A DNA stretch of 43,871 nt, taken from positions 1 to 43,871 of the forward strand of contig CACXCN010000002.1 in the NCBI GenBank assembly GCA_902766095.1, written 5' to 3'. A program made the position numbers and the translations under genes. The notes below the pieces were generated by a model. The model was not told the DNA's origin, searched no databases, and was given only the letters and a program-made list of their open reading frames with translations. Origin of the DNA: an uncultured Selenomonas sp. (GTDB lineage: Bacteria; Bacillota; Negativicutes; Selenomonadales; Selenomonadaceae). Shown piece by piece: positions 17,719 to 37,359 of the stretch. Within the stretch, counting starts at the first letter, position 1. The number at the start of each line of letters is the position of its first letter.

Positions 17719-18294
17719 TCAATCTTCGATGCCGCGGCGGGCGGCAACGCCGTGGGCGTAGTAGTGCTTTACTTCGTGCATATCGGTCACGAGGTCGGCG
17801 ATATCTATGAGCCAGTCAGGGGCTCCGCGGCCGGTCATGATGATCTCGAGGTCCGGATTGCCGATGGCAGGCGCCAGGCAGGGACGGACCTCTGACTCAG
17901 AGATGAGGCCGAAATGCAGCGCGACATTCAGCTCGTCAAGTATGACCAGCTCGTAGCGTCCGCTCGCGATGGCCGTATGGGCCTCTGCCAGCCCGCGAGC
18001 GATGAGAGCGACATAGTCCGCGGGCGGCTGTCCGGGCGGGAATACGACGATGTCGTCACCGAGCTCGCGCCGGCTGCGTTCGTCGAGCGTGCCCTCGGGC
18101 ACAATGAAGAACGGCTTGCCGCTCGTGTGGAGCTCGAGCCCCGGCAGGTGCATGAGCACCCCTTGTTCGCTGTAGGCGAGGCTCTTCATGAACTGCATGA
18201 TGTAGACGTGATGTCCGGCACCGAGGGCCCGCAGCGCCAGTCCGAGGGCGGCTGTCGTCTTGCCCTTGCCGGAGCCTGTGTATATTTCCAGCAT
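17719..18294 (-). CDS. cobO: Cob(I)yrinic acid a,c-diamide adenosyltransferase
   Basis: 191 residues, CobA/BtuR/CobO type. The P-loop YTGSGKGKTTAA is at residues 5-16, with ILDELN and TGRGAPDWL as further family motifs. It transfers the adenosyl group of ATP to cobalt in corrinoids, giving adenosylcobamides. It starts 4 bases after the paaK stop codon, so it is probably the last gene of that operon. No other corrin-ring genes are nearby, but a double CobT protein is encoded at 31225-33177, pointing to corrinoid finishing or salvage in this organism. Confidence 0.95.
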   Translation of the reverse strand: MLEIYTGSGKGKTTAALGLALRALGAGHHVYIMQFMKSLAYSEQGVLMHLPGLELHTSGKPFFIVPEGTLDERSRRELGDDIVVFPPGQPPADYVALIARGLAEAHTAIASGRYELVILDELNVALHFGLISESEVRPCLAPAIGNPDLEIIMTGRGAPDWLIDIADLVTDMHEVKHYYAHGVAARRGIED

Positions 18295-18298
18295 GATA

Positions 18299-19537
18299 TC
18301 AGTTGTCGTAGCGGGTATCGATGACGCGCTTCGTCTTCTTCGTGGAGCGGGGCAGAACGCCGATCTCGACGACCTTCACGAGCGGCGTGAAGCCGATGCG
18401 GCTCTTGACGCGCTCGGCGATGCGGTGAGCGAGGTCGAGGAAGTCTACGCTGCCGTTCGTCTCGACGTAGAGGCGCATGGTGTCCTTGCCATCAAGATGG
18501 GAGATATGGATCTGGTATTCGCTCGATACCTCGGGGAAGTCATGGAGAATCTCCTCAATCTGGCTCGGGAAGAGGTTGACGCCTTTTATCTTCACCATGT
18601 CATCCGTGCGGCCCTGTATCGTGTCGATGCGCGGGAAATGACTGCCGCAGGGGCAGTCGCCGGGGATGATGCGCGAGAGGTCATGCGTGCGGAAGCGGAT
18701 GAGCGGTGCGCCCTCTTTGCGCAGGGTCGTGATGACGATCTCGCCCCATTCGCCATCGGGCAGATTCTCGCCGGTGTGCGGGTCGATGATCTCGAGGTAG
18801 ATGAAGTCGTCCCAGTAGTGGATGCCGTCGTGCGCATCGCAGCTGATGCCGATGCCGGGGCCGTAGATCTCGGTCAGGCCGTAGATATCGTAGGCGTCGA
18901 TACCGAGTTTCTCCTCGATGGAGAGGCGCATCTTCTCACTCCAGCGCTCGGAGCCGATGACTCCTTTGCGCAGATGGATCTTGTCCTTTATGCCGCGGGC
19001 CTCGATGGCTTCGGCGAGCAGCAGGGCATAGGAGCTCGTGGCACAGATGACGGTGCTCTCGAGGTCCATCATCATCTGGAGCTGTTTCTCGGTGTTGCCC
19101 GGTCCCATCGGTACAGCCATGGCGCCGAGCTTCTCGCAGCCGGCCTGGAAGCCGATGCCGGCGGTCCATAGTCCGTAGCCCGGGGTTATTTGGACGCGGT
19201 CGCGGTTCGTGACGCCGGCCATCTCGTAGCAGCGGGCGAACAGGGTGGCCCAGTCAGCGACGTCTTTCGCCGTGTAGGGGATGATGACCGGTTTGCCGGT
19301 CGTGCCGGAGGAGGAGTGGATGCGGACGATTTTCTCCTCGGGAACGCTCATGAGGCCGAGCGGATAGGCATCGCGCAGGTCTTTTTTCTCAGAAAAGGGG
19401 AGCTTTGCAAAGTCGGCGGCTGAGCTCACGCCATCGATGCCCTGCTCGCGCAGGCGATGACCATAGAAGCTGTCGGCTTTGAGGAGCTGCTGGATGCGCT
19501 CATTGACGAGCGCGAGTTGGTCGTTGGATATCTGCAT
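18299..19537 (-). CDS. Phenylacetate-CoA ligase family (arylacetate-CoA ligase)
   Basis: 412 residues, an AMP-forming adenylate enzyme of the PaaK family. The ATP-binding loop SSSGTTGKP lies near residues 74-82, YGLTEIYGPGIGISC is the central motif, and GRTDDMVKIKGVNLFP leads into the small C-terminal domain. It activates phenylacetate or another arylacetate with CoA and ATP. Beside iorAB, a joint role is likely: IorAB turns arylpyruvates into arylacetyl-CoA and the ligase links this with free arylacetate, as in archaea and other anaerobes. Start ATG 19537 with AAAGGAA upstream. The next gene cobO follows after 4 bases. Confidence 0.92.
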   Translation of the reverse strand: MQISNDQLALVNERIQQLLKADSFYGHRLREQGIDGVSSAADFAKLPFSEKKDLRDAYPLGLMSVPEEKIVRIHSSSGTTGKPVIIPYTAKDVADWATLFARCYEMAGVTNRDRVQITPGYGLWTAGIGFQAGCEKLGAMAVPMGPGNTEKQLQMMMDLESTVICATSSYALLLAEAIEARGIKDKIHLRKGVIGSERWSEKMRLSIEEKLGIDAYDIYGLTEIYGPGIGISCDAHDGIHYWDDFIYLEIIDPHTGENLPDGEWGEIVITTLRKEGAPLIRFRTHDLSRIIPGDCPCGSHFPRIDTIQGRTDDMVKIKGVNLFPSQIEEILHDFPEVSSEYQIHISHLDGKDTMRLYVETNGSVDFLDLAHRIAERVKSRIGFTPLVKVVEIGVLPRSTKKTKRVIDTRYDN

Positions 19538-19605
19538 AAAGCTTCGTTCCTTTCATAATCAAGTGGCTGAAGTAATAAGGAAGCTTCCCCTAAGGGGCGT
19601 CATGC

Positions 19606-19660
19606 AAGCTTCCCCCTTTGGGGGAAGTGCCGAGCACAGCGAGGCGATAGGGGTGGCGAG
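19606..19660 (+). repeat. Intergenic repeat unit 1
   Basis: Begins AAGCTTCCCCCTTTGGGGGA (strong 8-bp hairpin CTTCCCCC/GGGGGAAG) and ends ATAGGGGTGGCGAG. It is preceded by a partial unit (AAGCTTCCCCTAAGGGG, 19581-19597). Inverted, diverged copies follow at 19759 and 19818. A repetitive extragenic element seen only in the iorB-paaK gap within this window. Confidence 0.65.
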
Positions 19661-19758
19661 GCGCGATGTAGCGTTCGGCAACACATTGATGGTTCGGCTG
19701 CCTGGATTATTTGTTGGTGGGCCGTTTATGCGATAGTACTCGAGTAAAAAGCTACTAG

Positions 19759-19811
19759 CTCGCCACCCCCACCACCGCTAGCGCGGTCCTCCTCCCCCAA
19801 GGGGGGATGCT
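19759..19811 (-). repeat. Intergenic repeat unit 2 (inverted)
   Basis: On the minus strand it reads ATCCCCCCTTGGGGGAGG...AGCGGTGG...GGGGGTGGCGAG, so it aligns with unit 1 at both ends with a diverged middle. Confidence 0.65.
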
Positions 19812-19817
19812 TTGCTC

Positions 19818-19871
19818 ATTGCCCCACCCCATCCACTGCTGACGCGGTCCCCCTTTTCCTAGGAGAAGGCT
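19818..19871 (-). repeat. Intergenic repeat unit 3 (inverted)
   Basis: On the minus strand it reads AGCCTTCTCCTAGGAAAAGG...GACCGCG...GGGGTGGGG, a more diverged relative of unit 2. The 344-base gap holds no gene. Confidence 0.5.
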
Positions 19872-19880
19872 GGGAGTATG

Positions 19881-20468
19881 TTATATACCCTTCTCACTGG
19901 CGTAGCGCAGGGCGCGCTCGTTCAGGGCGACGAATTGGGGCTTTACTTTGGCGCGGATGGCGGTCAGGAGGTCGTCGGCGGTCAGGAAATCGAGCGCGCC
20001 GCTCGCGAGAGCCGCACCGAGCATGATGACGTTGAGCGCTTTCGGATTGCCGATCTCGCTGGCTGCAGCCGCCCCGTCGAATACGTGGATATCGCTGACT
20101 TCGCGTTTCAGGTATTCGATCATCTCGCTTCCCGTGTAGTCCGTGCCGGATAATGCGGCGGTGACGGGCATAATCGGATGGCTGCTGACGACGAGCGTGC
20201 CATCCGGCTTCAGATAGGGCAGCATGCGCACGGCCTCAGCCGGCTCGAAGGCAAGCAGCAGGTCAGCAGTACCGCGGCGTATCATGGGGCTGTAAAGCTC
20301 GTCGCCTACGCGCAGATGGCTGAATACGGAGCCGCCTTTCTGGGCCATGCCGATGGTCTCAGCGCTCATTACTTCATAGCCTTTCGCGAGAGAGGCGGCG
20401 GCGATGAGTTTCGATGCGAGGACGGTGCCCTGGCCGCCGACGCCGGTCAGTATGATATTCTTCTGCAT
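19881..20468 (-). CDS. iorB: Indolepyruvate ferredoxin oxidoreductase, beta subunit
   Basis: 195 residues from ATG 20468 (a GTG one codon earlier is possible; AAAGGAGG serves both). It is the gamma-type domain of 2-oxoacid:ferredoxin oxidoreductases: ILTGVGGQGTVLASK at the N terminus, then ETIGMAQKGGSVFSHLR. With IorA it oxidises arylpyruvates (from Trp, Phe, Tyr) to arylacetyl-CoA and CO2, reducing ferredoxin. The ATG overlaps the iorA stop codon (TGATG), so the two are translationally coupled. Confidence 0.95.
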   Translation of the reverse strand: MQKNIILTGVGGQGTVLASKLIAAASLAKGYEVMSAETIGMAQKGGSVFSHLRVGDELYSPMIRRGTADLLLAFEPAEAVRMLPYLKPDGTLVVSSHPIMPVTAALSGTDYTGSEMIEYLKREVSDIHVFDGAAAASEIGNPKALNVIMLGAALASGALDFLTADDLLTAIRAKVKPQFVALNERALRYASEKGI

Positions 20469-22393
20469 CACTGGTCGCCTCCTTTGCTGTCAGCACTGTC
20501 CTGCCGTCCGGCTGCCGGCTGCCGGGGCGGCCAGCCTTTGGCCTTGAGGCGGACGCCCCGCGGGTCCAGCGTGACATCGATGGCATCAAAGGGGCAGATC
20601 TCGCTGCAGAGGCCGCAGCCGGTGCACTGGCTCGCGTCTATGGTGACCCGGCCCTGCTCGATGACGATGCCGGGGCAGCCGATTTCGCGGATGCATTTTT
20701 TGCACTGGCGGCATTGATCGGCATCGATGTGGGCGCGGCCGCGCGGTGTGACGAGAGCGATGCAGGGCGAGCGGAATATGATGGCCTTGACGCCGGGCTC
20801 GGCAGCGACGTCGCGCACGGTGGCGACAGCTTTTTCGAGGTCGAGCGGATCCACCGTGCGGATGGTCTTTATGCCGATGCCGGCGAGTGTCTTCTCGATG
20901 GAGACTTTCTCGACGACCTCGCCCATCATGGTATGGCCGGTGCCGGGATGCGGCTGGTGGCCGGTCATAGCGGTGGTGGAGTTGTCGAGCACGACGAGGA
21001 TGAAATCGGCCTGATTGTAGACGCCATTGATCGCGCCGGGGATGGCGGCAGCAAAGAATGTCGAATCGCCGACGAAGGCGAAGCATTTCGTGCCCGGATC
21101 GGCCGCTCTAATGCCCTGGGCGATGCCGAGGCCGGCGCCCATGCAGAGACAAGTGTCGACCATGTCGAGTGGCATGGCGTTGCCGAGCGTGTAGCAGCCG
21201 ATATCACCGGCAAACAGGCATTTCTGCCCCTTCATGGCGAGCTTGACCGCGTAGAACGAGGCCCGGTGCGGGCAGCCGGCACAGAGTACCGGAGGACGTA
21301 CGACCGCGAGCGGCGGCTGCGGCAGAGTGCGGGCCGGGGCGGCCTGCCAGTCCATGAATTTCACAACAGCGGCATAGACGGAGTCGCGCGTGTTTTCGCC
21401 GGCGGCGGTGATATCGCCCGTCAGCTTGCCGCGGATGCGGACCGGCAGGTGGTATTTGCCGCAGATATAGGTGAGCTCGCGCTCGATGACGGGGTCGAGT
21501 TCCTCGATACAAAGGATTTCGTCGAGGTCATGCATGAATTCGACGGCCAGCTCCTCCGGGAATGGGAACGGCATGGCGATTTTCAGCTGGCGCGGCAGCT
21601 CGCTGGCATGTTCGGAGCGGAATTCGTGCAGCGCTTCGGCCAGATAGGTCCAGGATACGCCCTGGGCGACGATGCCGCTGCGGATGACCGGCCGCGCTGC
21701 CGGGATGAGCCGGTTGCGCTCATATAGGGATGATACCTGTGTCAGCTCCGCATTGCGGTGCTCGATGGCGCCATGGGCGCGCAGCGACAGGCGCGGGAAT
21801 ATGACCCAGCGGCCCGGATCGCGGGCGAAGCCCTTCGGTTCATGCCGCGTGTATTCAGCAGGCGTCTTTATCGTTATCGAGGCATAGCCGTGGTCGACGC
21901 GCGTGGTCGGCCGGAACAGCACAGGTGTGTGATATTTCTCGGAGAACTCGAAGGCCTCCTGTATCATATCGTAGGCTTCCTGTACGCTCGACGGATCGAA
22001 GCAGGGCAGCTTCGCATAGCGGGCGAACGTGCGGGTATCCTGCTCGGTCTGCGATGATATCGGTCCGGGGTCATCGGCCACGAGGACGACCATGCCGCCC
22101 TCTACGCCGATGTAGGCCAGACTCATGAGCGGGTCGGTGGCGACGTTGAGGCCGACCTGCTTCATGGTGACGAGCGTGCGGGCACCGGCATAGGCAGCTC
22201 CGGCTGCCGTCTCCATGCCGGCCTTCTCGTTTGTCGACCATTCGACGTGGATGCGTCCGTCGTCATTATGGGCGGCTATGGTCTCGAGCACCTCGGTCGA
22301 GGGGGTGCCAGGGTAGCCGCTCACGAGATTCACTCCCGCTGCCAGTGCCCCGAGCCCGATGGCCTCGTTGCCCATCAGATAAGCTTTCTTCAT
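20468..22393 (-). CDS. iorA: Indolepyruvate ferredoxin oxidoreductase, alpha subunit
   Basis: 641 residues, normal IorA length. Order: pyrimidine-binding TPP domain (GNEAIGLGALAAGVNLVSGY at the N terminus, NEKAGMETAAGAAYAG), domain II, then the TPP pyrophosphate-binding region (GDIGCYTLGNA, GDSTFFAAAIPGA, LDNSTTAMTGHQPHPG). A C-terminal ferredoxin module carries two 4Fe-4S motifs, CRQCKKCIREIGCP and CTGCGLCSEICP. It passes electrons from arylpyruvate oxidation to ferredoxin. TAGGAGAG precedes the ATG. A TATAAT (22454-22459, minus) lies upstream without a clear -35. Confidence 0.97.
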   Translation of the reverse strand: MKKAYLMGNEAIGLGALAAGVNLVSGYPGTPSTEVLETIAAHNDDGRIHVEWSTNEKAGMETAAGAAYAGARTLVTMKQVGLNVATDPLMSLAYIGVEGGMVVLVADDPGPISSQTEQDTRTFARYAKLPCFDPSSVQEAYDMIQEAFEFSEKYHTPVLFRPTTRVDHGYASITIKTPAEYTRHEPKGFARDPGRWVIFPRLSLRAHGAIEHRNAELTQVSSLYERNRLIPAARPVIRSGIVAQGVSWTYLAEALHEFRSEHASELPRQLKIAMPFPFPEELAVEFMHDLDEILCIEELDPVIERELTYICGKYHLPVRIRGKLTGDITAAGENTRDSVYAAVVKFMDWQAAPARTLPQPPLAVVRPPVLCAGCPHRASFYAVKLAMKGQKCLFAGDIGCYTLGNAMPLDMVDTCLCMGAGLGIAQGIRAADPGTKCFAFVGDSTFFAAAIPGAINGVYNQADFILVVLDNSTTAMTGHQPHPGTGHTMMGEVVEKVSIEKTLAGIGIKTIRTVDPLDLEKAVATVRDVAAEPGVKAIIFRSPCIALVTPRGRAHIDADQCRQCKKCIREIGCPGIVIEQGRVTIDASQCTGCGLCSEICPFDAIDVTLDPRGVRLKAKGWPPRQPAAGRQDSADSKGGDQ

Positions 22394-29200: not shown

Positions 29201-31036
29201 TCACTGCTCCTCGCCGCCGTTTGGGTCATCGGTCAGCGTCTGCTGTCCGAGCATGGTCGTGAGGTTGCTGCGGTTGTAGGCATAGGCCGGGCTGCTGAAA
29301 TCCTGAGTTGCGAAGTAATGGTTCGAGGGTGCGTTCAGGATGCCGCATATGGTGTCATAGAGCATGTCGTTCGTGAAATAGCGGTTGCGATGTGATTCGA
29401 GCACGGAGGCGCGGCCGGGCAGGACGCTCCTGTAGGACGGGGAGAGATAGACGAACATCGGGATGCGGACCATGTCGTAGCTGAATACATCCGGATTATG
29501 CGATATCTGCAGATTCTCTCCATGGTCAGACATGTAGAACATGGCCTGCAGGTTCAGATTCTTCTGGGCGTATTCGAAAACCTGCGAGAGTATGTAGTCG
29601 GTGTAGAGTATGCTGTTGGCATACGATTCGGTGCTCGAGACCGTGGACTCGCCCTCCGGGGTGGTGAATACGTTGAACTCGCTCGGATAGCGGTTGTTGT
29701 AGTAGATATGGCTGCCCATGATGTGCAGGACGACGAAATTATCCTTATTGGGATCCAGCGCTGTCAGGTAGCTGAGCAGCGTGCCGTCGTATTTGTCGGA
29801 GAAGTTGTAGGAGTCATCGGTCCACTCCGCATGATCAGCCGTCTTGGCTACGAGCGTGATGGCGCTGTCGAACTGTCCGTAGCGGCCCTGGTTGCTGAAC
29901 CACCAGGTCTCATAGCCGGCTTTATGGGCCACGTCGATGATGGAGGTCGAGTCGTAGAATTCCTTGCCATTGTACTGGCTCTGCTCGGTCAGGGCGCGCT
30001 GCAGGACTGGCACCGTCTGGGACCAGCTGGAGTAGGCATTCTGGAAGGAGATGAAGCCGCTGTCCGGCTGGCTGAGCTTCTCATCGAGCCAGGGAGTATC
30101 CTCATAGGGGAACGACGGGGTGTAGGCATGCATGTAGTCGCGCGAGGCCGATTCGCCGATGACGAGGATCACGGTTCCCGGGGCCTTGGCCGGCAGCGTT
30201 TCGTATCTGTCGATGGCCAGATCATCCAGACGCTCATCATGGCCGACGCCGTACTCCTGGGTCTGCTCGACGTACGTTGTGACGTCGTTCCACTGCTCGG
30301 CCATGGACGTCAGCGGCAGATAGTAGTACAGGGCATAGATGCTGCCGATGACCAGGGCGGCGAGCACGCCCATGCGTCCAGCAGTAGGTCCGTCGTCGGT
30401 TACGGTACGGGCGATGGCCAGATGGCAGCGATAGGCGGCATAGAGCAGCACGGCGATGACAGCCAGGATGATGCAGGCCGGCAGTACGCCGACGTTCGAC
30501 TGAATGAAATCAAGGCTTTCCTTGTAATTCGTGAGGTATACGGCCATGAGCGAGGCCGGGGTCAGGCAGTGCCAGACGAGGAAATAGTAGGCATACTCGA
30601 GAAATGGCACGAACAGGGCCACGAAATTCAGCAGCGAGGCCAATACGGCGAACACGCGGATATGACCGATATGATAGCAGGCGCTCTCGAGTGATGTTAT
30701 CAGTATGAGGGCAGCCGTGCCGACGATGAAGTCGAAACAGATGAGAGACTGATACCATACACTGTTGTACGTCCAGGCGTAGAGCAGCGGGAAGGCACTG
30801 GCCCAACCGATGCCCGAGAGGAGATTCGGGATCATGGCGCGCGATAAGAGCGGGACGCGGGTCGCATATTGCAGGGCTATGAGTGCGCCGATTACCGGCA
30901 GCAGTATGGGCATGAAGTACTCAGCGCCCATATCCTCACCAATATCGATATAGAAAGCGATGAGGCAGACAAAATAAATGCTGGCAGCTATGATCCAGCG
31001 TAGCAGGGAATCGGAATTTGTACGCGTATCAGGCAT
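29201..31036 (-). CDS. Phosphoethanolamine transferase (sulfatase-fold, EptA-like)
   Basis: 611 residues. The N-terminal third has about five to six membrane helices; the rest is an extracytoplasmic alkaline-phosphatase/sulfatase-fold domain. Motifs: VILVIGESASRDYMHAY (metal-site start), SSWSQTVPVL (region of the Ser/Thr nucleophile) and MSDHGENL with following SHN (metal and zinc ligands). Such enzymes move phosphoethanolamine from phosphatidylethanolamine to lipid A, Kdo or periplasmic glucans, which supports an outer membrane and LPS in this organism. The modification can alter sensitivity to cationic peptides. The acceptor cannot be told from sequence. GGGAG precedes the ATG. Confidence 0.9.
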   Translation of the reverse strand: MPDTRTNSDSLLRWIIAASIYFVCLIAFYIDIGEDMGAEYFMPILLPVIGALIALQYATRVPLLSRAMIPNLLSGIGWASAFPLLYAWTYNSVWYQSLICFDFIVGTAALILITSLESACYHIGHIRVFAVLASLLNFVALFVPFLEYAYYFLVWHCLTPASLMAVYLTNYKESLDFIQSNVGVLPACIILAVIAVLLYAAYRCHLAIARTVTDDGPTAGRMGVLAALVIGSIYALYYYLPLTSMAEQWNDVTTYVEQTQEYGVGHDERLDDLAIDRYETLPAKAPGTVILVIGESASRDYMHAYTPSFPYEDTPWLDEKLSQPDSGFISFQNAYSSWSQTVPVLQRALTEQSQYNGKEFYDSTSIIDVAHKAGYETWWFSNQGRYGQFDSAITLVAKTADHAEWTDDSYNFSDKYDGTLLSYLTALDPNKDNFVVLHIMGSHIYYNNRYPSEFNVFTTPEGESTVSSTESYANSILYTDYILSQVFEYAQKNLNLQAMFYMSDHGENLQISHNPDVFSYDMVRIPMFVYLSPSYRSVLPGRASVLESHRNRYFTNDMLYDTICGILNAPSNHYFATQDFSSPAYAYNRSNLTTMLGQQTLTDDPNGGEEQ

Positions 31037-31224: not shown

Positions 31225-33177
31225 TTATTGCTGCCCGTCTGCACCCGGACCATCGATGGCGATAGCCACATGGGCGCTGGCAAATGTCTTCATATCGTTC
31301 AGTATGGCCAGGCTGGCATCTACGATCTGTATCGCCAGGCAGGCCAGAGTGCCTCCAGGCAGGTCGGATTCGAGATCGAGCAGCGCCGGTTGCGGATGAA
31401 GTACGTAGTGGCGCAGCGTTGGGCAGATGGCCTCCGTATAGCGGGCGATGATGTCCGTGGCGGCATCGCCGACGATGACCAGGCTGCTGTTGTGGGCGGC
31501 GGCGATGATGGCGCCCATGATGGCGGCGATGGCCCCCTGATATTCATCCGGCGCATATTTCAGGAATTCATCTGCCGGGTAGCGCAGGCTGCCGTCATCA
31601 TCGAGCAGGCTCTCGCGCAGGCGCTGGGCCGCAGTGCCGAGCGGCATATCCGGATCGAGCTCGGTCATGGCGATGCCGAGCAGCGGGTATACGAAAGCCG
31701 CCTGCTCGCCATGTTCACGGCCGAAGTTGAAGTAAGACGTTATGGGCAGCCCCTCGCGCAGGTGGGCGATGGTGACGTCCAGATCGGACAACTCTCCCTC
31801 ATCGGTCACGCTGCCGGCATGGGCAGCGAAGGCCTCGGTCATAGCCCCGAGCATCGGATTCGGCAGCATGCCGGAGAAACAGAGCAAAGAGCGCCCCGAG
31901 CCATTCGGCGGACATTCATCACCAGTGGCGGCGGCTAATTCCGTGGCCAGCGTCTCGAGATAGCCGAGGCTGTATATCGGCTTGGCGAGATGGTTCAGAC
32001 GATCCTGGCAGGCTGCGAGGGCCTCACCATCGAGTTCCTGCATCGTATTCAGATAGAAGTCGAAGGTCTTGTCGGTGGCAGGTACCGCCTGACGCGACAT
32101 GTAGACGTGTTCGAACGGCTGCTCGACCGGAGACTGGGGCAGGTGGTCGAGCACCTCCCAGGCGGCCAAGATCGATTGCAGTATGCACAGGAGTACCGAG
32201 GAGCCGCAGGCCTCGCCGAGTCGCAGGTCGAGGTGCAGGCAGGGCGTGAGGCCGAGATGGCGCAGGGCATGCTGATGGGCAGGCTCGCTGCCGAGATGCG
32301 AAGCCATGACGTAGTCGATGCTGTGCGGAGACAGCCCCTGAGCGATGAGGGCGGCAGCGGCGGAGTTCGCGCCATCGATGATGGTGCAGCAGCCATGAGC
32401 TGCCGCACCGAGGATGATGCCGGCGATAGCGCCGAGCTCGAAGCCGCCGACCTTGGCCAGCACATCGAGAGCATCATCGGCGTCAGGCTGGTTGAGCTCC
32501 AGAGCCCGTTTGACGATACCCTGCTTCTGACGCAGACGTTCATCGGATATGTTCGTGCCACGGCCGGTCGCTTCCTCAGCGGTAAGACCGCAGAATGTAG
32601 CAGTGATACAGGCCATAGCCGTCGTGTTGGCGATGCCCATCTCGCCGGGGAGCAGGCAGTCATAGCCTTGCTCGATGGCACGTTCGGCCAGCGTGATGCC
32701 GGCCTCTATCGATTGCCGGGCCTGCTCGCGAGTCATGGCCGGTCCCTGAGCCATATTCTGCGTGCCCTGAGCGATGCGGAAATCCAGCAGGCCAGGGATG
32801 GAGGCTGCTTCCTCCGCAGGGACAGCGATGCCGAGGTCGGCGACGATGAGCTCGGAGTCACAGTATTTCGCCAAGGCATTCGCAGCGGCTCCCTGCGCGA
32901 TGAGGTAGTTGCGCGTCATGTCGAGTGTCGTATCCTGCGGATAGGCCGATACGCCCTCTGCTGCTACGCCGTGGTCGGCACAGCAGATGATCGTACACGG
33001 CGTAGGCAGGTCAGGATGGAGCTCGCCGGTCAGCCGTATGTAGCGGTAAAGGATATCGCTGAGCCGACCGAGGGCTTTTTCATCACCTTCCATGACCGCA
33101 GCCAGACGCTGGTGCATGTCATCAGCCGGAGCCGCAGCAGGGACGATGCTGTTTAATGTATTCTGCAGAATAGGCAC
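31225..33177 (-). CDS. Tandem CobT-domain phosphoribosyltransferase (ArsA-ArsB-like fusion)
   Basis: 650 residues, twice the CobT length. Residues 1-355 are a CobT domain: CADHGV, LLPGEMGIANTT with Glu179, and LRLGEACGSS with Glu322. These match Glu174 and Glu317 of Salmonella CobT with the same 143-residue spacing. Residues 375-650 are a second, degenerate CobT domain: LAKPIYSLGYLETLA matches the family's KPPGSLGRLE start, but the catalytic Glu motif reads DLESDLPGG. CobT makes the alpha-ribotide of the lower ligand of cobamides. Sporomusa and Veillonella use paired CobT homologues, ArsA and ArsB, to activate phenolic ligands; this looks like such a pair fused. GTG 33177 follows GAGAGGAG. 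It starts 37 bases after the unknown gene, in an apparent LysR-orf-cobT operon. Confidence 0.85.
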   Translation of the reverse strand: MPILQNTLNSIVPAAAPADDMHQRLAAVMEGDEKALGRLSDILYRYIRLTGELHPDLPTPCTIICCADHGVAAEGVSAYPQDTTLDMTRNYLIAQGAAANALAKYCDSELIVADLGIAVPAEEAASIPGLLDFRIAQGTQNMAQGPAMTREQARQSIEAGITLAERAIEQGYDCLLPGEMGIANTTAMACITATFCGLTAEEATGRGTNISDERLRQKQGIVKRALELNQPDADDALDVLAKVGGFELGAIAGIILGAAAHGCCTIIDGANSAAAALIAQGLSPHSIDYVMASHLGSEPAHQHALRHLGLTPCLHLDLRLGEACGSSVLLCILQSILAAWEVLDHLPQSPVEQPFEHVYMSRQAVPATDKTFDFYLNTMQELDGEALAACQDRLNHLAKPIYSLGYLETLATELAAATGDECPPNGSGRSLLCFSGMLPNPMLGAMTEAFAAHAGSVTDEGELSDLDVTIAHLREGLPITSYFNFGREHGEQAAFVYPLLGIAMTELDPDMPLGTAAQRLRESLLDDDGSLRYPADEFLKYAPDEYQGAIAAIMGAIIAAAHNSSLVIVGDAATDIIARYTEAICPTLRHYVLHPQPALLDLESDLPGGTLACLAIQIVDASLAILNDMKTFASAHVAIAIDGPGADGQQ

Positions 33178-33214: not shown

Positions 33215-34105
33215 TCAGCGGCGCGTCATCTTACCTACTTCATCACGCAGGTAGCATATGGTCAGCAGCTGCGTGCGGGCCTGCTGTTGCAGGTCGCTCG
33301 GGGAGGCTGACTTTAGCGACTGGGGTTCCGCAGGGGGCTGGTGCTTCATAGCGGAAAGCCCGATCTGCTGCTTTACTGCTTCCATCGCCGACTGCTGTAT
33401 GCCATGAACGATGCGGTTGCATTTGTGGACGAGTTGTAGCAAGGCTTCTTTCTCTGCAGGCGAGCAGGAGACATCACTATCGCTGAAATTATCGAACTGG
33501 TTGTATTCGTCATAGAGCTTATGATAGTATTCGTCCGTCAGACGCAGCAGGAGCCGGCTGGCGGAGGCAATCGAGGTCGTGCGCTTGATCTTCGTGATGA
33601 TGGCATCCTTCGGCAGATGAGCCAGATAATGAGGTGAATAGAGCACGGCATCGCTGGCAAAAGGAGCCATGGCGAATACATAGTGGCTTTTCTCCAACGC
33701 GTTCATGATGTCTGCCGTGGACATCTCGGAAAAGGCGATGCCGCGGAAACGCAGGCCGTGCAGCCCCATGTCATAGCACTCGCGCTGGAGCAGGTCGATA
33801 TAGGCGCGTAGACTCGTGAATATCGTTATAGTCTCGCCAATCGGTACATGTGATACGTCGAGGAAGAATTTCGTCGTTGGGCGCAAATCGAAAGGAATGA
33901 GCTGATGGCTCGGTATGATGTTGGCCAGACGCAGCTGCTTCATGCTGGAGCATACGTACAGGCAGCCGTCCTGAGGCGAGCTGATCTCATTGATCAGCAT
34001 CGTGTCTACGGGGAAATTAGCGCCGATGATGGAACGTATGATGCCACGGATCTCGCGGGCTATGGAGATATCGCTGCCAACGGCGATCAGCTTCGGATGA
34101 TACAT
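33215..34105 (-). CDS. Unrecognised protein between LysR and the double CobT
   Basis: 296 residues. I do not recognise the family. The first ~170 residues look alpha/beta (KLIAVGSDISIAREI, then strands such as LYVCSS, TKFFLDV, TITIFTS), with a predicted helical second half (about 180-245) and a Gln/Pro/Ser-rich linker near the C terminus. No signal peptide or membrane segment. Start at ATG 34105 because AGGTGG lies upstream; an ATG six codons earlier overlaps that site. It follows the LysR gene by 27 bases and precedes the CobT fusion by 37, so it is probably cotranscribed and may be a sensor or regulator, but no DNA-binding motif is visible. Confidence 0.75.
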   Translation of the reverse strand: MYHPKLIAVGSDISIAREIRGIIRSIIGANFPVDTMLINEISSPQDGCLYVCSSMKQLRLANIIPSHQLIPFDLRPTTKFFLDVSHVPIGETITIFTSLRAYIDLLQRECYDMGLHGLRFRGIAFSEMSTADIMNALEKSHYVFAMAPFASDAVLYSPHYLAHLPKDAIITKIKRTTSIASASRLLLRLTDEYYHKLYDEYNQFDNFSDSDVSCSPAEKEALLQLVHKCNRIVHGIQQSAMEAVKQQIGLSAMKHQPPAEPQSLKSASPSDLQQQARTQLLTICYLRDEVGKMTRR

Positions 34106-34132
34106 GTTATCCCACCTTTCCATGCAATCGGG

Positions 34133-35094: not shown

Positions 35095-37359
35095 TTATTT
35101 GCCGGCAGTCGATACATCTTTAGGAACTTGTTTGAGCGAGAGGCCGATGCGGTTTCGTTTTTCGTCGACGCTGATGATCATGACGTTCACGATGTCGCCG
35201 ACCGAGAGGACGTCGAGCGGGTGCTTGACGCGCTTGTGGCTGAGCTCGGATATATGGATGAGACCGTCATCGTGCAGGCCGATATCGACGAAAGCGCCGA
35301 AATCCGTGATGTTGCGCACCGTGCCGCGCACGATGGAGCCGATCTTGAGGTCGGACAGCTTTACGATGGCCTGCCGCGTGAGCGGTGCCGGCAGATCCTC
35401 GCGCGGGTCGCGTCCCGGGCGGGTCAGGGCGGCAAGGATATCGCGCACGGTCGGCTCGCCGGCGTCCAGCTTCCGGGCGAGTTTCTTTATGGCGTCGTCG
35501 TCCATGAGTTTCACTTTGGAGCCGAGCCAGGCCAGACGATCTTTGTCGCGCAGGTTGGCGAGGGTGAAGCCGAGTTCGCTGAGGATGTCCTGGGCGAGCT
35601 GGTAGGATTCCGGGTGGACCGGCGTGTCGTCAAGCGGGTTGTCACCGCTGTGGATGCGCAGGAAGCCGGCGCACTGGGTATAGGCGGCCGGGCCGAGACG
35701 AGGAACCTTGAGCAGGGTACGGCGGCTGGCGAAGATACCGTTGTCATTGCGATAGGTGACGATGTTCCGGGCGGTCGTATTCGTTATACCGGCGATATGG
35801 CTCAGCAGGGCCGGGCTGGCGGTATTGAGGTCGACGCCGACGCTGTTGACAGCGGTCTCGATGGTGGCGTCGAGGGCTGCAGCCAGCTCTTTCTGATTGA
35901 CATCGTGCTGGTACTGGCCGACGCCGATGGCCTGGGGATCGATCTTTACGAGCTCGGCGAGCGGATCCTGCACGCGGCGGGCGATGGAGGCTGCACCGCG
36001 GATCGTCACGTCGTAGTCGGGCAGTTCCTCGCGGGCGAGTTTCGAGGCCGAGTAGACGGAGGCACCGGCCTCGTTCGTTATGATGTAGTGGACGTCGGCC
36101 AGGTGGTTGTCGGCAATGAGCTGAGCCGTGAATTGCTCGGTCTCATAGCTTGCCGTACCGTTGCCGATGGATATGAGGTCGACATGGTGTTTCTTTATGA
36201 GTTCTAGGACTTTCCGGGCACCGGCATCCCGGGCCCCTTGGCTTTGGGTTATCTGGATCTTGCCGCTGTCGAGTACGGCGCCAGTGGCGTCGACGACGGC
36301 CATCTTGCAGCCGTTGCGGTAGCCGGGGTCTAATCCGAGGACGACGTGGCCGGCCAGCGGGGCCTGGAGCAGGAGCTGCTTGAGGTTGGCGGCGAATACT
36401 TTTATGGCCTGAGCGTCAGCCTCCTCCGTCAGGCGATTGCGCAGCTCGCGCTCGAGGGCCGGCAGCAGCAGGCGCTTGTAGCCATCGGCGATGGCTGCTC
36501 TCAGGGTTTCATCCCAGATGGAGACGCGGCCTTTGCTGTGCTGCTGGCGTACCTGCCCGAGGATGCGGGCACAGTTGGCCTCGTCATCGGTCTGCAGGGT
36601 GACTTTGAGGCAGCCTTGCTTTTCGCCGCGGTTTATGGCGAGGATGCGGTGCGAGGGCAGGCGATGGACCGGCTCGCTGTAGTCCGCATACATTTCGTAT
36701 GTCTGTGCACCCTCGGCTGTCTCATCCAGTGTCGTAGCGAGGCTTGCCGTACGCCAGAGGTGGTCGCGCATATCCTCGCGTATGGCTGCAGTCTCCATGA
36801 TCTGCTCCGCCACGATGTCCTGAGCACCGGCCAGGGCGTCTTCCAGCGTGCGCACGATGTTCTTCTGAGCGTCGCCGCCGGCGGCCTCGGCCGCCTCGAT
36901 GTCTGCTGCCGGGGTTACGAAAGCGGCGGCGATGGTCAGGGGATTGCCCTGCTGGTCCTGCTGCTCACGTATTCTCTGTGCCAGCGGCTCGAGACCGCGC
37001 TCGCGGGCCATTTGGGCACGCGTGCGCTTCTTCTGCTTGTAGGGGAGGTAGATATCCTCGAGCTGCTGGAGCTGGGTGGCTTTTGCGATGGCCTGCTGCA
37101 GTTCGTCGGTCAGCTTGCCCTGGGATTCGATGGCGGCAGTTATCTCCGCCTGGCGCTTGACGAGGCCGCGCAGGTAGGACAGGCGCTCCTCGATGCTGCG
37201 AATCTGCTCATCGGTGAGCTCGCCGGTAGCTTCTTTGCGGTAGCGGGCGATGAAGGGGACGGTGTTGCCGCCGTCGAGCAGACTGGCGGTGGCTTCGACC
37301 TGGGCCGGGCGGATGTTCAGTTCTTTGGCGATGGTTTTGTTTATGTCTTGTTCCAGCAT
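35095..37359 (-). CDS. tex: Tex family transcription accessory protein (S1 RNA-binding)
   Basis: 754 residues, usual Tex length. Order: N-terminal helical Tex domain (VPFIARYRKEATGEL near 34-48), YqgF-like RNase H fold (VVLGLDPGYRNGCKMAVVD), helix-hairpin-helix motifs (LLSHIAGITNTTARNIV), and a C-terminal S1 domain (IVRGTVRNITDFGAFVDIG). It binds nucleic acid and is linked to transcription and RNA handling; exact function is unsettled in bacteria. GAGAGG precedes ATG 37359. It is followed by the LysR operon on the same strand with only 95 bases between. Confidence 0.96.
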   Translation of the reverse strand: MLEQDINKTIAKELNIRPAQVEATASLLDGGNTVPFIARYRKEATGELTDEQIRSIEERLSYLRGLVKRQAEITAAIESQGKLTDELQQAIAKATQLQQLEDIYLPYKQKKRTRAQMARERGLEPLAQRIREQQDQQGNPLTIAAAFVTPAADIEAAEAAGGDAQKNIVRTLEDALAGAQDIVAEQIMETAAIREDMRDHLWRTASLATTLDETAEGAQTYEMYADYSEPVHRLPSHRILAINRGEKQGCLKVTLQTDDEANCARILGQVRQQHSKGRVSIWDETLRAAIADGYKRLLLPALERELRNRLTEEADAQAIKVFAANLKQLLLQAPLAGHVVLGLDPGYRNGCKMAVVDATGAVLDSGKIQITQSQGARDAGARKVLELIKKHHVDLISIGNGTASYETEQFTAQLIADNHLADVHYIITNEAGASVYSASKLAREELPDYDVTIRGAASIARRVQDPLAELVKIDPQAIGVGQYQHDVNQKELAAALDATIETAVNSVGVDLNTASPALLSHIAGITNTTARNIVTYRNDNGIFASRRTLLKVPRLGPAAYTQCAGFLRIHSGDNPLDDTPVHPESYQLAQDILSELGFTLANLRDKDRLAWLGSKVKLMDDDAIKKLARKLDAGEPTVRDILAALTRPGRDPREDLPAPLTRQAIVKLSDLKIGSIVRGTVRNITDFGAFVDIGLHDDGLIHISELSHKRVKHPLDVLSVGDIVNVMIISVDEKRNRIGLSLKQVPKDVSTAGK

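Follow-up and report, generated by a model that had tools for sequence, protein, structure and literature searches.

The closest described system to the locus analysed here is ArsAB of Sporomusa ovata (PDB 4hdk, 4hdm, 4hdn, 4hdr and 4hds), which is encoded by two genes. Veillonella parvula has an ArsA beside a degenerate ArsB, encoded by two unfused genes that overlap at an ATGA junction; this species is reported to produce p-cresolyl cobamide (PMC8123684, PMC9600662) and also has a cobT (PMC8123684). For phenolyl cobamides, which are reported to account for 20-34% of the cobamides in the bovine rumen and 16% of those in human faeces, no known producers other than S. ovata and V. parvula are named (PMC8123684). 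The CobT of Salmonella enterica (SeCobT) is a homodimer with two equal sites and a pocket formed from two chains, and its wild-type residues Ser80, Gln88 and Leu175 can be read from how its mutants are named in PDB titles. Finally, BluB/CobT2 of Propionibacterium freudenreichii (PMC4657239) is also a fused lower-ligand protein with a CobT domain, and joins DMB synthesis to CobT.

We compared these systems with a gene of an uncultured Selenomonas sp., located in a stretch of 43,871 nucleotides (contig CACXCN010000002.1), which is called the window throughout. The gene starts with GTG, has GAGGAG ahead of the start and encodes one continuous chain (Table 1). A sequence-only reading had described the product as a double CobT protein, with a catalytic and a degenerate domain fused, and both the single 650-residue ORF and the Pfam DBI_PRT matches bear this out. 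The match to domain 1 covers nearly the whole domain (7.9e-102), and domain 2 is matched only by separate N-terminal and C-terminal pieces (7.0e-7 and 7.3e-5). DBI_PRT is the sole domain family found; the BluB flavin-destructase domain is absent, which distinguishes the protein from the P. freudenreichii fusion. Like S. ovata ArsAB, it consists of two homologous parts in the same order, with the ArsA-like catalytic residues and pocket triad and the C-terminal signature of ArsB; however, the S. ovata system is two genes and the Selenomonadaceae form is one chain. The predicted full-chain model has a pTM of 0.94 and its domain 1 matches ArsA chains at Z 50, in a fold comparison (VIA-align) that gives one row per entry, ArsB being without a separate row for domain 2. 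The same two-domain architecture recurs across the family without internal stops and at 41-61% identity, so the gene is neither an assembly artefact nor a product of chance. Its score against the NCBIfam cobT equivalog TIGR03160 is 367.5, above the cut-off of 319.3; thus, automatic annotation would name it an ordinary cobT.

Table 1. Positions in the window of the fused gene, its segments and two further genes; conservation values are means over 59 fused proteins
Feature	Coordinates (strand)	Residues	Remarks
Fused arsAB (cobT-like) gene	31225..33177 (-)		650 codons; stop at 31225-31227
Domain 1, ArsA-like	32143..33177 (-)	1-345	Conserved catalytic core at about residues 57-325
Glu179 codon	32641..32643 (-)	179	SeCobT Glu174 position; E in 109/109 fused domain 1
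Glu322 codon	32212..32214 (-)	322	SeCobT Glu317 position, active-site base; E in 109/109 fused domain 1
Linker	32044..32142 (-)	346-378	In Selenomonadaceae long forms, TDKTFDFYL is conserved
Domain 2, small-domain N part	31918..32043 (-)	379-420	LxKPxxSLGxLE; mean conservation 0.66
Domain 2, degenerate core	31360..31917 (-)	421-606	Catalytic Glu positions lost; mean conservation 0.47
Domain 2, small-domain C part	31228..31359 (-)	607-650	NDMKTF...DGPGA, ArsB signature; mean conservation 0.69
tex	35095..37359 (-)		Two genes between tex and the fused gene
CobA/BtuR-type corrinoid adenosyltransferase	17719..18294 (-)		Same pathway, non-adjacent; below NCBIfam cut-offs

Regarding the catalytic residues, the two glutamates read from the sequence as retained in domain 1 are Glu179 of the GEMG motif and Glu322 of the RLGE motif, 143 residues apart. 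The KPIYSLGYLE stretch said to be kept by domain 2 begins at residue 399. GEMG and RLGE are missing from domain 2, also as claimed: the column of Glu174 contains alignment gaps and that of Glu317 contains Gly. Both glutamates are invariant in fused domain 1 (Table 1) and occur in almost none of the fused domain 2 sequences. S. ovata ArsB still has GEMG and LGEG, whereas the fused domain 2 is more degenerate, with both glutamates lost and strong remodelling. The fused protein shares its fold and the catalytic glutamates with S. enterica CobT, but two equivalent active sites of the homodimer type do not appear to be present, since domain 2 is without the catalytic residues. We judge the ArsB part to be non-catalytic from the loss of both Glu positions.

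The resemblance to ArsA and ArsB that had been proposed is borne out by the best solved relatives and by phylogeny. Among solved structures, domain 1 is closest to S. ovata ArsA (PDB 4hdk_A, 5.9e-101), and domain 2 alone matches ArsB best (4hdk_B, 2.5e-14), chiefly via the C-terminal LNDMKTF...DGPGA stretch. The main tree contains 110 domains, with 48 rows of ArsA and domain 1 and 47 rows of ArsB and domain 2. In this tree, domain 1 falls in one clade with ArsA, domain 2 falls in another with ArsB, and a second, true CobT of the Negativicutes stands outside both (support 99). SH-aLRT is 92 for each of the two clades and 99 without the most divergent pair; a smaller tree supports them at 85 and 93. 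The sequence-only reading had named grouping of the domains with CobT as part of the result that would contradict it, and both domains stand apart from the Negativicutes CobT. One locus labelled CobT (L173, genome G063) sits inside the ArsB clade beside Veillonella ArsB, not with CobT. The label fused or split switches repeatedly on the tree, and for domain 1 at least three changes are forced by the starred branches; thus, fusion or fission probably occurred more than once.

To describe the spread of the single-chain form, we compared 60 sampled genomes of the same family, the source genome excluded. The protein has a match in 57 of them, of which 55 are single-chain and two are cut by contig ends (manual count from the match table), and a separate arsB occurs in none of these 57 Selenomonadaceae. 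A wider search of the family gives matches in 182 of 189 genomes, and every one of the 99 good-quality genomes is among them. Named relatives with a match are Selenomonas, Schwartzia, Anaerovibrio, Mitsuokella, Propionispira and Pectinatus, and no relatives were found on viral contigs. The single-chain form is family-wide in the Selenomonadaceae, whose members live in the gut and the rumen, and we present this as new. As one 650-residue ORF that is single-chain across the family, it is filed here as a variant of ArsAB and not as the canonical heterodimer from tandem genes. Tandem unfused arsA-arsB pairs are seen in S. ovata and Veillonella, in agreement with the earlier statement that Sporomusa and Veillonella use two CobT homologues. 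In locus L071 (G090, 702-2891), arsA and arsB lie in one frame with a single TAG between them, a near-fusion state. Six loci of other Negativicutes families (L039, L040, L046, L052, L070 and L158) combine an ArsA-like gene with a short ArsB-like gene of 270-320 aa, about 0.6-0.9 kb away and non-adjacent.

The partner chain in the CobT dimer contributes its small domain, which is made of N- and C-terminal helices. The base pocket of SeCobT is built by both dimer chains (PMC9561151). If domain 1 holds the sole active site, selection should keep the core of domain 1 and the small domain of domain 2 and relax the rest, and the conservation of 59 fused proteins, with segment borders set by hand from the alignments, matches this pattern. 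The mean value is 0.71 for the core of domain 1 and 0.45-0.46 for its small domain; in domain 2, the order is reversed, with 0.66-0.69 for the small domain and 0.47 for the core. For example, the same N part scores 0.66 in domain 2 versus 0.45 in domain 1. Moreover, the small domain contains 29 of the 38 top-conserved positions of domain 2 (p 3e-9) and all seven that are invariant in the 59 proteins (L397, K399, P400, E408, M629, F632 and V637). Split ArsA (core 0.74, small domain 0.50) and split ArsB (small domain 0.67-0.77, core 0.60) show the same trend, so the division of labour predates the fusion. Purifying selection acts on the domain 2 core in the long forms of the Selenomonas type (Ka/Ks 0.05-0.2, with Ks near saturation in some cases), which rules out that the core is merely decaying there. 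The core carries lineage motifs in Selenomonas, AFxFGR, DGSLRY..EFL and GAIIAAAHN.

Natural deletion forms show the same partition. The Pectinatus ORFs (484-512 aa) have domain 2 cut down to the small domain, with the core gone. In three g18 genomes, the ORFs of 398-439 aa lack the N-terminal small domain of domain 1 besides the domain 2 core; the identity to G044 is 80% for G190 and 59% for G017, and in G017 just 17 codons separate the start from the upstream stop. Among the g12 genomes, G039 has both losses, its domain 2 being about 80 aa, and G057 and G011 are without the N-terminal part of domain 1 only. In each of these two genera there are proteins reduced to about 390 aa in the order core, then small domain. 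The predicted model of the g18 minimal form has a pLDDT of 92 and a pTM of 0.92, and its first approximately 280 residues match the ArsA and CobT cores at Z 38. Since the core is deleted in some lineages and constrained in Selenomonas, it is dispensable in some and kept in others. We lean slightly towards a history in which the heterodimer was first fused and the two partners then reciprocally lost their unused halves, so that the g18 and G039 proteins would be circularly permuted phenol phosphoribosyltransferases of about 390 aa with one complete site per chain. If so, this form resembles an ordinary CobT in length and differs from it in domain order and origin. The deletion forms lead to the prediction that the contribution of ArsB comes from its small domain, and together with the mirrored conservation they fit one composite active site.

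Regarding the lower ligand, PDB titles record that SeCobT S80Y/Q88M/L175M was crystallised with p-cresol. The corresponding triad in the fused domain 1 (n=109) is Tyr80 in 105 sequences (Phe in 4) and Met88 and Met175 in all 109, like ArsA, and position 88 is Gln in 14 of 16 sequences of the second Negativicutes CobT. Thermus CobT also has the Tyr/Met/Met triad, so the triad cannot serve as a marker unique to phenol use; it is consistent with such use but not diagnostic. The source genome (99.8% complete) encodes a cobamide operon with CbiD, tetrapyrrole methylases, CbiG, CbiC, CobU, a CobQ-like amidotransferase, CbiB and CobS. The fused gene is its only PF02277 gene, so that there is no other CobT, and no BluB scores above the cut-off. 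A single ThiC-family protein is found, indicating that BzaA/B/F are absent. ThiH frees p-cresol from tyrosine, and the genome encodes a ThiH (504.8 bits); p-cresol is thus the most likely lower-ligand base. From the operon, the lack of another CobT and of BluB and Bza, the ThiH and the pocket triad, the expected product would be a p-cresolyl or phenolyl cobamide. The triad and the genome context lead us to infer that the fused protein attaches phenolic bases.

Taken as a whole, a single-chain ArsAB is the best explanation, and we consider it probable. The Rossmann core and its two catalytic glutamates would come from domain 1 (ArsA), and domain 2 (ArsB), its own catalysis lost, would pack its small domain on domain 1 and complete the base pocket, as the second chain does in dimeric SeCobT. 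CobS would then join the activated phenolic alpha-ribotide to the corrinoid. Within this explanation, we infer how the domains pack, that the base is phenolic, and that ThiH supplies it as p-cresol.

Other origins and roles of domain 2 were also weighed. Both domains are of the CobT type and the second is degenerate, as would be seen if domain 2 were an in-gene duplicate of domain 1 with no kinship to ArsB. However, forcing the two domains together on the smaller tree costs 434 log units (p-AU 1.4e-74, under the model used; p-AU 1e-4 for the Selenomonadaceae alone), the C-terminal signature is common to ArsB and domain 2, and related families have tandem arsA-arsB genes, which makes a duplication scarcely credible. 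It is also quite improbable that domain 2 is a mere dimer-like scaffold or stabiliser that makes no contribution to the active site, or that its remodelled core has taken on a novel function, for instance ligand sensing. The purifying selection on the Selenomonas core and its lineage motifs favour such a role, but the invariant and most of the top-conserved residues of domain 2 lie in the small domain, and some lineages have deleted the core while keeping the small domain.

A further alternative accepts fused ArsAB by descent and changes the base, so that adenine or salvaged benzimidazoles would be attached to give pseudocobalamin or benzimidazolyl cobamides. A PDB entry of S. ovata ArsAB has DMB bound, so promiscuity is possible; a review states that ArsAB is able to activate DMB (PMC8123684), and the cobT equivalog score points in the same direction. 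Against these points stand the lack of BluB and Bza in the genome, the ArsA-type pocket triad and the p-cresol-releasing ThiH, and we regard this alternative as unlikely. Under the preferred single-chain ArsAB with a phenolic base, the fused gene affects how producers are predicted. In a survey of 11,000 species, producers of phenolyl cobamides were predicted from two adjacent cobT genes, giving 27 species (PMC6461909). The fused gene cannot satisfy this criterion, so such a prediction would miss the Selenomonadaceae, among them S. ruminantium of the rumen. A fused or eroded ArsAB is not mentioned in the literature searched, a set without the primary ArsAB papers.

The gene neighbourhood differs among relatives: several Selenomonadaceae have tex directly upstream and abutting the fused gene, and two genes intervene in the window (Table 1). 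One ORF of 302 aa (33215-34123, minus strand), which has a LysR regulator on one side and the fused gene on the other, gives no Pfam or NCBIfam match. Directly downstream lies a gene for a CptA/EptA-like phosphoethanolamine transferase with a sulfatase fold (29201-31036, minus strand), which scores below the curated NCBIfam cut-offs. An Rfam scan of the window gave one tRNA as the sole element and no cobalamin riboswitch. Lastly, at 17719-22393 (minus strand), the CobA/BtuR-like adenosyltransferase is next to a PaaK-like CoA ligase and subunits of an indolepyruvate:ferredoxin oxidoreductase, a cluster with a possible link to aromatic amino acids.
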